Assembly: GCF_900110875.1 (NCBI RefSeq)
Contig: NZ_FOFM01000001.1
Span: forward strand, 434,001-498,000
Length of the DNA: 64,000 nt
Direction: 5' to 3'
Source: Pseudovibrio axinellae
GTDB taxonomy: Bacteria > Pseudomonadota > Alphaproteobacteria > Rhizobiales > Stappiaceae
This document shows, in pieces, positions 50,421-52,916 of this stretch (positions are counted from its first letter, which is position 1; the number at the start of each line of letters is the position of its first letter). The notes below the pieces were generated by a model that searched no databases, had not been told where the DNA came from, and worked only from the letters and a program-made list of their open reading frames with translations. A program made the position numbers and the translations under genes.

Positions 50421-51065
50421 TCAGGCAAGCAACTCAACAAGGGGAATGGACGGCACCTGCCCTGCTTCAAAATGCAAGAGATTGATTTCCAGATGGTCGT
50501 TCTCAAAGCGCACGGGCGTATCAAATAGGAAACCTGCGGTGATCACGGCCTCATTGGCAGGCGTGTGCTCCTCGTGAAACTCAAGAATGCCGGTTGAAAG
50601 GTCTATTAAGACCTCGCTGCCAACTGTTTTAGCCTGCCCGTCAACTGCAACACTGACAGTTCCTTCAAGGGGTTTTGTGATCGTGCGTTGCCAGACGTGA
50701 TCAAGAGTTCCGACAGATTTAACCAGTTGGAAGAGTTTGGTTGTGCCATCGCCTTTTGCCAAAACAACATCGGTTGGCGAGGGAGACTGAGAAAACTCAC
50801 AGGATTTATGGTCCATAGGGTCCCTAAACCGAAATCCACAAATGCGCCCACCTACTTTTTCATAAAACGCCAGAACATTATGCAGATCAGCTGCACTTCG
50901 TAATCCGGTGCCCACATCAAAGTGCCGTCGCGTTCCCTTCCAGATTGCGTTCCGCTTCTCCGCACCATTCAGTAAGGTCGTGACATGACTACGTTTTTCC
51001 ACCCTGACAGAAGCCCCTAGGGAAATTCCCAGGGGGAATGATTCATCAACAAAACATAGCGTCAA
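50421..51065 (-). CDS. GTA distal tail protein, DUF2460 (g12-like)
   Basis: 214 residues from TTG at 51065, with AGGAG six bases upstream. DUF2460 hallmarks: FPLGISLGAS, AEKRNAIWKGTRRHFDVGTG, KVGGRICGFRFRDPMDHKS, and ITAGFLFDTPVRFENDHLE at the end. It forms the hexameric distal tail ring. It is the first gene after an unusual 210-base gap containing a terminator-like hairpin, so its translation does not depend on coupling to g11. Confidence 0.92.
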   Translation of the reverse strand: MTLCFVDESFPLGISLGASVRVEKRSHVTTLLNGAEKRNAIWKGTRRHFDVGTGLRSAADLHNVLAFYEKVGGRICGFRFRDPMDHKSCEFSQSPSPTDVVLAKGDGTTKLFQLVKSVGTLDHVWQRTITKPLEGTVSVAVDGQAKTVGSEVLIDLSTGILEFHEEHTPANEAVITAGFLFDTPVRFENDHLEINLLHFEAGQVPSIPLVELLA

Positions 51066-51204
51066 TTGCCTCTCCTATTTGACTTGGCTCAAGGTTAGCC
51101 TCTCGCGAAGCATCTAAGAGGTTTGCCATGGGAAAATTGTTTGCATGTTTTATGCAGACCCGTTGTCCATGCTCCTCCCTCTTTGCAAAACAACGGTTTT
51201 TCCT

Positions 51205-51235
51205 AAAAAGTTTGCTGCCACCGTCCGGCAGCAAA
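51205..51235 (-). terminator. Terminator-like hairpin between GTA g11 and g12
   Basis: TTTGCTGCC / GGCAGCAAA (51211-51219, 51227-51235) form a nine-base-pair stem with a seven-base loop; on the minus strand the stem is followed by CTTTTTAGG. It begins about 40 bases after the g11 stop. It could end or attenuate the head-side transcript before the baseplate genes. Confidence 0.6.
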
Positions 51236-51275
51236 ATCGCGTCGGTCCTTGAGTCCCTCCTCTTCAATGCCGACG

Positions 51276-51821
51276 TCATAGCCCGCGTCGCCCCCGTCCG
51301 GTGGCGCGGGCCATTATCATCGCAATCTGTCCCTGAGATTTTTCAAAGCTGCGTACATCTTGTGTCGCAACATTAATTGTAACGCCCGGCTGCGCACTTC
51401 CTCCAGCCATCATGACACCCAGCTGTCCGTTGCTCCCACGCTGTAAAGGAAGAATTGCCTCTGCTCCGGCCTCCCCCATGAGGCCCAGTCCCGTTCCCCC
51501 TGCTGCAAACAAAGTTGGGCTGGACACCACTCCCCCTTTTGCAAAGGGTGTTACACCCGGCGCACTGCCGAGTGCTGTTGACAGGCCTGTACTTATCAAA
51601 TTTTCAATCGGTTTCAGTGCGCTGCTGAGTGCGGAACTGGACATACTAAGGGCGACTTGCGACAAGATCGATTGCAGGTCTTTGCCCGATGTGACTGCAT
51701 TTTGAAGCCCCTTACTCAACTCAGAGGAAAACTCTCTTGCAAGGGAGTTGACCTCTTGCATGATAGTCTCCAGCTCGCGGCCCTCATTTAGATCGAGGCT
51801 ATCATTGTAATCATCTGTCAT
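51276..51821 (-). CDS. GTA short tail tape measure protein (g11-like)
   Basis: 181 residues, somewhat shorter than the roughly 220 of RcGTA g11. The Gly/Ala-rich middle (LSTALGSAPGVTPFAKGGVVS, split by helices) and GEAGAEAILPLQRGSNGQLG are the conserved tape-measure end of GTA tails, and the C-terminus ARATGRGRRGL is the normal family end, so the gene is complete. Its start overlaps the g10.1 stop as ATGA. The short length agrees with the very short tail of GTA particles. Confidence 0.88.
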   Translation of the reverse strand: MTDDYNDSLDLNEGRELETIMQEVNSLAREFSSELSKGLQNAVTSGKDLQSILSQVALSMSSSALSSALKPIENLISTGLSTALGSAPGVTPFAKGGVVSSPTLFAAGGTGLGLMGEAGAEAILPLQRGSNGQLGVMMAGGSAQPGVTINVATQDVRSFEKSQGQIAMIMARATGRGRRGL

Positions 51822-52027
51822 GAGTTTGCTTTCTTACCACGATCGGGAAATCTGGAGAGGAGGTCATCCAAGGTCTGGCGCGAGATATTGTGTGCGCTGT
51901 ATTTGTGCGGCGGCTTTAAAGCCATTTCCAGCTCCTTCGCCGTTGCCTGCCAAAATGTGCGAGGCGACCACCCAAGTTCCCGGCAGGCTTTGTGCAAAAG
52001 ATCGTGCCAGGGAAAGGGCTGTGTTAT
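51818..52027 (-). CDS. GTA tail assembly chaperone 2 (g10.1-like) lacking a standard start codon
   Basis: Reading the -1 frame relative to g10 gives 69 residues from an ATA at 52027: the beginning TQPFPWHDLLHKACRELGWS, then RTFWQATAKELEMALKPP, and the end SRQTLDDLLSRFPDRGKKA. This is the small phage tail assembly chaperone (DUF2376-type) that always sits between g10 and g11 in RcGTA clusters. No ATG, GTG or TTG occurs in frame near the expected start; a TTG at 51997 would remove the conserved FPW. The ATA overlaps the g10 stop (CTATAA). Expression is either from a rare ATA start or by -1 frameshift from g10, whose frame is open across the junction. Confidence 0.82.
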   Translation of the reverse strand: MTQPFPWHDLLHKACRELGWSPRTFWQATAKELEMALKPPHKYSAHNISRQTLDDLLSRFPDRGKKANS

Positions 52028-52422
52028 AGATCGCTCGCTTTTTGCGGGTGAGATGCGGCCTTTTTGAGTGGCGCTTGCGTGCTCGCTTGCTGGGGCGAAA
52101 AGGTTGCAACCAAAAGGTCTCCCACCACTTGGACCAGCGCAGCAATGCCGCCAACATGGGAAAACGCCGCAACCTCTTCATCTTCGATGAGCAGACCGCC
52201 ACCGCGCAGACCTGCACCCAATACCTTAATAATATCGGTTGCACTCAATTGCCCCGATGAGAAGCGTTCGGTCAGATCCTGAAGCGTATTGCACGCCAGC
52301 GCTGTTTCTAATTCGGCAAGAGCGCCCAGTGTCAGCACCAAAATATGTTTTTGCCCTAAGAGCTCTGCCTCAATTTCACCGCGCTGCGCGTTCACGCCGC
52401 TGGTGTGGGTTTGTCTCGTCAT
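52024..52422 (-). CDS. GTA tail assembly chaperone 1 (g10-like)
   Basis: 132 residues. Conserved text: NAQRGEIEAELLGQKHILVL, TLGALAELETALACNTLQDL, and DIIKVLGAGLRGGG. It helps load the major tail protein around the tape measure, a role inferred from position and size. The 3' end carries an AAAAAG slippery run at codons for Lys-Lys (52060-52066) and a second A-run at 52039-52043 before the stop. The ATG at 52422 lies nine bases after the g9 stop. Confidence 0.9.
   Translation of the reverse strand: MTRQTHTSGVNAQRGEIEAELLGQKHILVLTLGALAELETALACNTLQDLTERFSSGQLSATDIIKVLGAGLRGGGLLIEDEEVAAFSHVGGIAALVQVVGDLLVATFSPQQASTQAPLKKAASHPQKASDL
52060..52066 (-). promoter_or_regulatory. Candidate -1 ribosomal frameshift site in GTA g10
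   Basis: The heptamer C AAA AAG lies at codons Leu-Lys-Lys of g10, in the zero frame required for slippage. A -1 shift here enters an open frame (Gly-Arg-Ile-Ser-Pro and on) that runs without a stop into g10.1. Tail assembly chaperone pairs of many tailed phages use this mechanism. The match is by pattern only; no downstream structure was evaluated. Confidence 0.5.
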
Positions 52423-52431
52423 CGTGTTGTC

Positions 52432-52848
52432 CTAGCTCAGCTGCGTGAATGTGAGTGCCCCGGCAGATTCCAGCGAAATCTCAAAGGTCACTTCGGACCG
52501 GTAGTCGCCCGAATACTCCAATGCGGACAGGTGAAATGGGCCTTCCAGCGTTCCAAATCCGGGTAAAATGATCTGCCAATTGCACAGCGCGCCAGCAAAG
52601 AAGGCCGCACGTACTTCCTCTGCTGAGGCTTTGTCTCTAAACAATCCGCTCCCGGACAAGGACGCATGACGCGTTGAGGCACCGGCTAACAGCTCTCGCC
52701 AGCGCCCCGTACTTTCAGCATCCGTGATATCAATCGGGTTGGCATTGAGTGCAAAGCGCCTGCTGCGCAATCCCGCCACGCTTACAAACGTTCCATCACC
52801 TGCCCTATCCAATTTCAGCAACAGGTCTTTTCCGGCCTGAGCGACCAT
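52432..52848 (-). CDS. GTA major tail protein (g9-like)
   Basis: 138 residues from the ATG at 52848, with AAAGGA about seven bases upstream. TP901-1-like major tail protein: VAQAGKDLLLKL, SRRFALNANPIDITDAESTG, FRDKASAEEVRAAFFAG, and TFEISLESAGALTFT at the end. It polymerises into the tail tube. It follows g8 with a 68-base gap, which is long for this cluster. Confidence 0.93.
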   Translation of the reverse strand: MVAQAGKDLLLKLDRAGDGTFVSVAGLRSRRFALNANPIDITDAESTGRWRELLAGASTRHASLSGSGLFRDKASAEEVRAAFFAGALCNWQIILPGFGTLEGPFHLSALEYSGDYRSEVTFEISLESAGALTFTQLS

Positions 52849-52916
52849 CTGTTTTCCTTTCTGACGTTTAAAACGCATGTCAGTTATGAGAGCGCACTCT
52901 CGTGCAATGCTGGCGC

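Follow-up and report, generated by a model that had tools for sequence, protein, structure and literature searches.

Probable -1 frameshifting between the tail assembly chaperone genes g10 and g10.1 of RcGTA-type GTAs, and a junction in Pseudovibrio axinellae that has probably lost its old stop and has no recognised start

Results

The g10-g10.1 junction in Pseudovibrio axinellae

How a tail assembly chaperone gene can be translated when its reading frame offers no recognised start codon is the question raised by a GTA cluster of Pseudovibrio axinellae. The stretch analysed, hereafter the window, comprises 64,000 nucleotides (contig NZ_FOFM01000001.1, positions 434,001 to 498,000), and its minus strand carries an RcGTA-type head-tail cluster with long ORFs from 59250 to 45147. 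Matches to Pfam and NCBIfam models cover g8, g9, g10, g10.1 and g11; g2-g7 and g12-g15 were identified by visual inspection of the listed ORFs. The features that define the junction are:

52432..52878, minus strand: g9, major tail tube protein, the upstream neighbour (PF06199, E 8.9e-42)
52024..52422, minus strand: g10, tail assembly chaperone 1 (G-like), zero frame (PF11836, E 7.8e-23; gene order g9-g10-g10.1-g11)
51818..52027, minus strand: g10.1, tail assembly chaperone 2 (T-like), in the -1 frame of g10 (PF09550, E 6.9e-15)
52024..52027, minus strand: ATAA, in which a -1-frame ATA (52027-52025), the rival start codon, overlaps the g10 stop TAA
52007..52018, minus strand: CCC TTT CCC TGG, the conserved PFPW that opens the g10.1 domain
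51276..51821, minus strand: g11, tape measure protein, the downstream neighbour (NF058675, E 1.8e-40, below the cut-off of that model)

Direct reading of the minus strand bears out the preliminary description of this DNA, which had placed g10.1 in the -1 frame without a normal start, and its coordinates proved exact, including the ATA at 52027-52025 and the end of g10.1 at 51818. The g10 frame closes with TAA at 52026-52024 and that of g10.1 with TGA at 51820-51818, a stop overlapped by the ATG of g11; g10.1 also matches TIGR02216 (E 4.5e-10, under that model's own cut-off). No stop interrupts the -1 frame for 151 bases upstream of the g10 stop, as far as 52177, and between that point and the conserved PFPW it holds no ATG, GTG or TTG in the window, its first TTG lying 29 bases past the g10 stop and within the g10.1 domain. 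Over 5924 bases the window matches an IMG/VR contig (L311) exactly; as this contig may come from the same strain, its independent support for these bases is weak. A structure search with g10 returned nothing useful in the PDB and modest matches in a viral set. A further ORF of 77 aa lies between g11 and g12 (51046-51279, minus strand), its ATG overlapping the g11 stop.

As in a G/T-type pair, the genes for tail tube and tape measure enclose two short genes, of which the second is in the -1 frame of the first; g10 and g10.1 probably represent the tail assembly chaperone pair of an RcGTA-type GTA, the counterpart of lambda G and T. Gene order and Pfam families are the same as those of g10 and the second tail chaperone of RcGTA, which is named g10.1 in the available text of PMC9765227 and g10.5 in that of PMC11409702.

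Reading frames and start codons across the family

Junctions were collected with PF09550, which matched in 49 of 61 relatives, in all 16 genomes of the genus, in 59 of 87 genomes of the family and, in drawn samples, in 158 of 249 from the order and 41 of 289 from the class. These sets overlap; further stretches were fetched, and 80 named loci found with g10 were added. The resulting 308 loci gave 283 distinct usable junctions after three loci with no usable pair (L038, L125, L247) and 22 duplicates had been left out, and 282 after removal of L059, a spurious weak match. Relative to g10, g10.1 occupies the -1 frame in 261 of the 282 junctions and another frame in the remaining 21. A junction was termed start-less if no ATG, GTG or TTG occurs in the interval that begins 60 bases ahead of the g10 stop and ends just within the domain. 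This applies to 124 of the 261 -1-frame junctions versus one of the 21 others (Fisher p 5.5e-5).

The 261 -1-frame junctions fall into 202 in which the g10 frame stops short of the g10.1 domain and 59 in which it runs over the domain start; 58 of the latter are start-less (the 124 minus 66 in the former set). The C CCT TTY heptamers of these 59 loci were not counted on their own because they partly code for PFPW. Over the g10 stop of start-less loci stand the codons GTA (22), CTG (21), CTA (9), TTA (8) and ATA (6); a preference for ATA at this place was considered and rejected family-wide. Two loci (L005 and L270) show a g10 frame reaching 73 bases into the g10.1 domain, with no g10.1 start near the junction. 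Four relatives from the same family as the window's species (L222, L223, L225, L227) display a separate-start solution, in which g10.1 begins within TAATG, overlapping the g10 stop TAA.

Slip motifs at the end of g10

Motifs of the form X_XXY_YYZ were counted in that part of the g10 tail where the -1 frame is open. In the 202 loci there are 108 such heptamers in frame versus 6 and 6 in the other two phases, the commonest in-frame forms being A AAC CCT (47), G GGA AAG (14) and A AAC CCC (10). In 28 of 58 loci with A AAC CCN the g10 stop follows the motif directly. The motifs are concentrated where g10.1 lacks a start: a heptamer is present in 48 of 66 start-less loci versus 14 of 59 ATG loci (p 4.6e-8, without correction for kinship). 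If C_CCN tetramers are admitted, a slip motif is found in all 66 start-less loci (a heptamer in 48, C_CCN alone in 18, none with neither) versus 22 of the 59 ATG loci (14, 8 and 37, respectively), C_CCN being a loose criterion, as its occurrence without a heptamer in those 8 ATG loci illustrates. Loci whose only candidate start is TTG resemble the start-less group (19 heptamer, 23 C_CCN, none with neither), these TTG codons arising mostly from CCT TGA; among GTG loci the corresponding counts are 11, 8 and 16.

A first clustering by single linkage at 70% lumped 182 of the 282 loci into one cluster, and greedy thinning was therefore used to reduce redundancy. Below 80% identity there remain 79 heptamers in frame versus 6 and 5, with a heptamer in 69 of 148 loci versus a mean of 23.3 and a maximum of 36 in 500 codon shuffles; below 60% the counts are 20 versus 2 and 2, and 17 of 47 loci versus a codon-shuffle mean of 6.3 and a maximum of 15. 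As controls, 355 g9 tails gave 16 heptamers in frame and 12 and 4 out of frame, and the same count over an internal part of the g10 domain, in 283 loci, gave 8 in frame and 7 and 20 out of frame. A further set, mainly from IMG/VR, comprised 100 loci and yielded 78 new junctions once 20 duplicates and the loci L356 and L378 had been dropped. Of these, 76 have g10.1 in the -1 frame; heptamers number 30 in frame versus 2 and 1, a heptamer or C_CCN is present in 19 of 19 start-less loci, and 15 of 18 ATG loci have neither. This set amounts to a replication rather than a blind test, because the same models were used and related species are included.

The in-frame excess of heptamers and the presence of a slip motif in every start-less locus whose g10 stops short of the domain make -1 frameshifting between GTA tail chaperones appear widespread. 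It is very probably real, and at the level of the family it is by far the best account of these sequence comparisons. In much of the family g10.1, without a start of its own, would be reached by ribosomes slipping back one base at X_XXY_YYZ or C_CCN; a slip at the end of g10 is predicted from the comparison to yield a g10-g10.1 fusion beside plain g10. This pattern does not prove the mechanism in the species of the window.

Downstream hairpins were also considered as a general feature and rejected: in the 50-base stretches after heptamers, structure is not stronger than at loci without a slip motif (92 versus 53, p 0.46). One group of six loci (L198, L201, L202, L207, L208, L215) does have strong hairpins after A AAC CCC (z -2.6 to -4.9), in which one pair, compared by eye, appears as A-U, G-U or G-C.

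History of the junction in Pseudovibrio

Comparison within the genus offers a view of how the window came to lack a start. In ten of the 16 genus loci the g10 stop stands exactly 26 bases before the g10.1 domain, and the aligned place in the window is occupied by CAA (52044-52042). In an alignment of 11 junctions, CCG precedes the stop in five of the ten relatives (P. japonicus L018, L043, L010, L020, L046), four of which (L043, L010, L020, L046) have the form C_CCG. The window keeps CAC CCG, its CCG now being followed by CAA (52047-52042), and L017, with CAC CCC GCC, represents a parallel loss of the stop. As CAA stands where the stop is found in ten of the genus loci, the old g10 stop behind CCG was most likely lost in this Pseudovibrio; g10 would then be extended by six codons and end at a TAA that forms ATAA by coincidence. 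The CCG is partly conserved among close relatives and is lost in the clade with GTG starts.

The sisters of the window mostly have recognised starts. GTG lies over the g10 stop in seven genus genomes (counting L032) and ATG in L021, and the IMG/VR Pseudovibrio contigs L312-L321 include eight with GTG and two with ATG; L312 is the next IMG/VR relative after L311, with 77% of matched g10 residues. Thus, an overlap of the stop with a recognised start is present in sister species, whereas the window has ATAA. These start codons align with 52045-52043 of the window, now GCA, and not with the ATA, which is not their heir. The preliminary description had regarded close relatives with an ATG at 52027 and no slippery run as evidence against slippage; this expectation is borne out in part, as relatives with GTG or ATG over the g10 stop do exist, their start aligning with 52045-52043. 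L018 and L045 have a stop in the -1 frame 7 and 13 bases, respectively, ahead of the g10 stop, which precludes a slip upstream of the latter; together with the GTGA and ATGA overlaps this indicates that separate initiation works in the clade. A tree joins the window to the GTG clade with L021 excluded (support 93), and the GTG clade without the window has support 46, which concerns the place of the window relative to P. japonicus. Parsimony favours neither mode as ancestral for the lineage of the window and does not decide between them. L032 (genome G009) and L316 each contain two copies of the GTGA overlap, owing to a tandem duplication that runs from the end of g10 into the start of g10.1.

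Candidate slip sites and competing explanations in the window

The end of g10 in the window has no in-frame X_XXY_YYZ heptamer. What it has, with the -1 frame open to g10.1, are three in-frame tetramers of the Z_ZZN type (A_AAG, C_CCG and A_AAA), located as follows:

52060..52066, minus strand: C AAA AAG, with the in-frame tetramer A_AAG, without conservation in the genus
52045..52048, minus strand: C_CCG tetramer, the preferred putative slip site, from alignment with Pseudovibrio relatives
52042..52044, minus strand: CAA at the aligned place of the g10 stop, 26 bases before the g10.1 domain, which reads as a lost stop
52039..52043, minus strand: A-run, in frame CAA AAA with the tetramer A_AAA, the second site of the preliminary description

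Tetramers of this kind alone can act as shift sites in the -1 frameshifting of IS1/IS3-family elements, as reported in PMC4066793. According to the same source the order of efficiency in E. coli is A_AAG, then U_UUC, U_UUU, C_CCU = C_CCC and A_AAA, all measured with a stimulator, and tetramers do little without one. There C_CCG and A_AAA are weak, the value for C_CCG being at best 1.8 to 3.6 times background, a range that refers to a group of four motifs with a stimulator (PMC4066793). Structure after the three tetramers of the window is unconvincing, with z between 0.7 and -1.7. Of the 64 tRNA gene matches in the own genome of this strain, 56 could be typed; these include three tRNA-Lys with UUU and one with CUU, and three tRNA-Pro with UGG and one with GGG, CGG not being seen among them. 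If CGG is truly absent, CCG would be read by the UGG tRNA, which may help a slip at C_CCG. Runs of five A are short for transcriptional slippage.

The site put forward first in the preliminary description was C AAA AAG. It does lie at 52066-52060 with AAA AAG in the zero frame, and the -1 frame is indeed open from there through to the end of g10.1; moreover, its A_AAG is the most slippery tetramer of the E. coli series (PMC4066793). It does not, however, fit the form X_XXY_YYZ, of which only the tetramer A_AAG is present, and in the P-site AAA would have to re-pair with CAA. In the alignment the run has no counterpart in the genus, A_AAG being found among near relatives only in L027 and L021 and at other places, no structure follows it (z -0.25 to -0.89), and the tRNA-Lys(CUU) gene may make A_AAG less slippery than in E. 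coli. A single A_AAG in a g10 tail is unremarkable, and it is the family-wide pattern that exceeds chance. Thus, the proposal of -1 frameshifting is strongly supported by comparative sequence across the family, but a slip at this particular place is improbable and less likely than one at C_CCG or A_AAA. Better suited is the place beside the second A-run (52043-52039), where C_CCG (52048-52045), a third tetramer missing from that description, is found; the A-run itself covers the lost stop codon. Production of g10.1 by a low-level -1 slip at the retained C_CCG or the adjoining A_AAA is the reading we prefer for the window, with a likelihood that we would put only slightly above even.

The alternative is that ribosomes terminating at the TAA at 52026 reinitiate at the overlapping ATA (52027-52025). 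Such coupling would have parallels in the GTGA or ATGA overlaps of sister species and in L018 and L045, which leave no room for a slip, and L043, the other start-less species of the clade, has an ATA two bases into its stop region (TAATA). AUA is, nevertheless, a poor start codon, and the starts of the sisters occupy a different place. Being the rarest codon over the stop in start-less loci (6), ATA does not appear to be selected there, and at least four of the other five loci with it have an upstream slip heptamer (L077, L164, L187, L273), the remaining one (L277) having C_CCT. Reinitiation at ATA is a less likely explanation than a slip at C_CCG or A_AAA, but a serious rival to it.

It is also conceivable that g10.1 is no longer usefully expressed, the loss of stop and start being a recent lesion in a decaying GTA, as several changes at one junction with neither a canonical heptamer nor a start might suggest. 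The g10.1 frame is, however, intact and appears to be kept by selection, given a dN/dS of 0.09-0.25 in seven of nine pairs with Pseudovibrio relatives (two pairs were not computable, and synonymous substitutions approach saturation), and the window's ORFs, terminase through g15, look full length. A very recent loss would stay invisible to such measures. Decay is given little credence, the least of the explanations considered for this junction.

Relation to known systems and implications

The arrangement of these genes resembles that of the lambda G/GT and HK97-type pairs: they lie between the tail tube and tape measure genes, the downstream one is in the -1 frame and lacks a start, and a slip motif is found close to where the upstream one ends. 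The slip sequence of lambda G/GT is G GGA AAG, and the same heptamer occupies 14 of the in-frame sites in the 202 GTA loci. The GTA family differs from lambda in that it most often has A AAC CCT, in many cases immediately followed by the g10 stop; the window differs further in having tetramers only, and the element is a domesticated GTA rather than a phage. In lambda itself the tail assembly chaperones G and GT are related by a programmed -1 frameshift, as described in PMC5009743. IS1/IS3 elements mostly use A_AAG and U_UUY and depend on a stimulator (PMC4066793), unlike the GTA loci with their C_CCN.

The junction of the window would represent a new member of the known phage G/GT class, found here in a GTA. 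As the preliminary description had supposed, this appears to be undescribed for GTAs: no report of g10/g10.1 frameshifting was found in the full-text GTA and RcGTA literature searched, most subscription papers lying outside that scope, and the word frameshift has no occurrences in the available text of PMC9765227 and PMC11409702. Taken together, the comparisons make it probable that RcGTA-type GTAs across Hyphomicrobiales and some other alphaproteobacterial lineages produce their second tail chaperone by -1 frameshifting at a favoured site of their own (A AAC CCY or C_CCN, often right before the g10 stop), that lineages like Pseudovibrio have switched between the fusion and separate start-stop initiation, and that the species of the window stands in between, with its stop lost and no start.

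If this is correct, GTAs would, long after being domesticated, still possess a finely tuned phage device that sets the G to GT ratio, an argument for continued selection on tail assembly. The switches between frameshift fusion and two separate proteins would constitute a natural series for testing whether the fusion is needed. Frameshifting would also account for the frequent absence of g10.1 from annotation or its inner start there, as in two database records. Among the loci surveyed are two filed as phages, L309 (MW091529.1) and L310 (MW462191.1), which have GTA-like g9-g11 genes with A AAC CCT TGA; their annotation treats g10.1 as a gene of its own, with a start 69 and 45 bases, respectively, past the g10 CDS.
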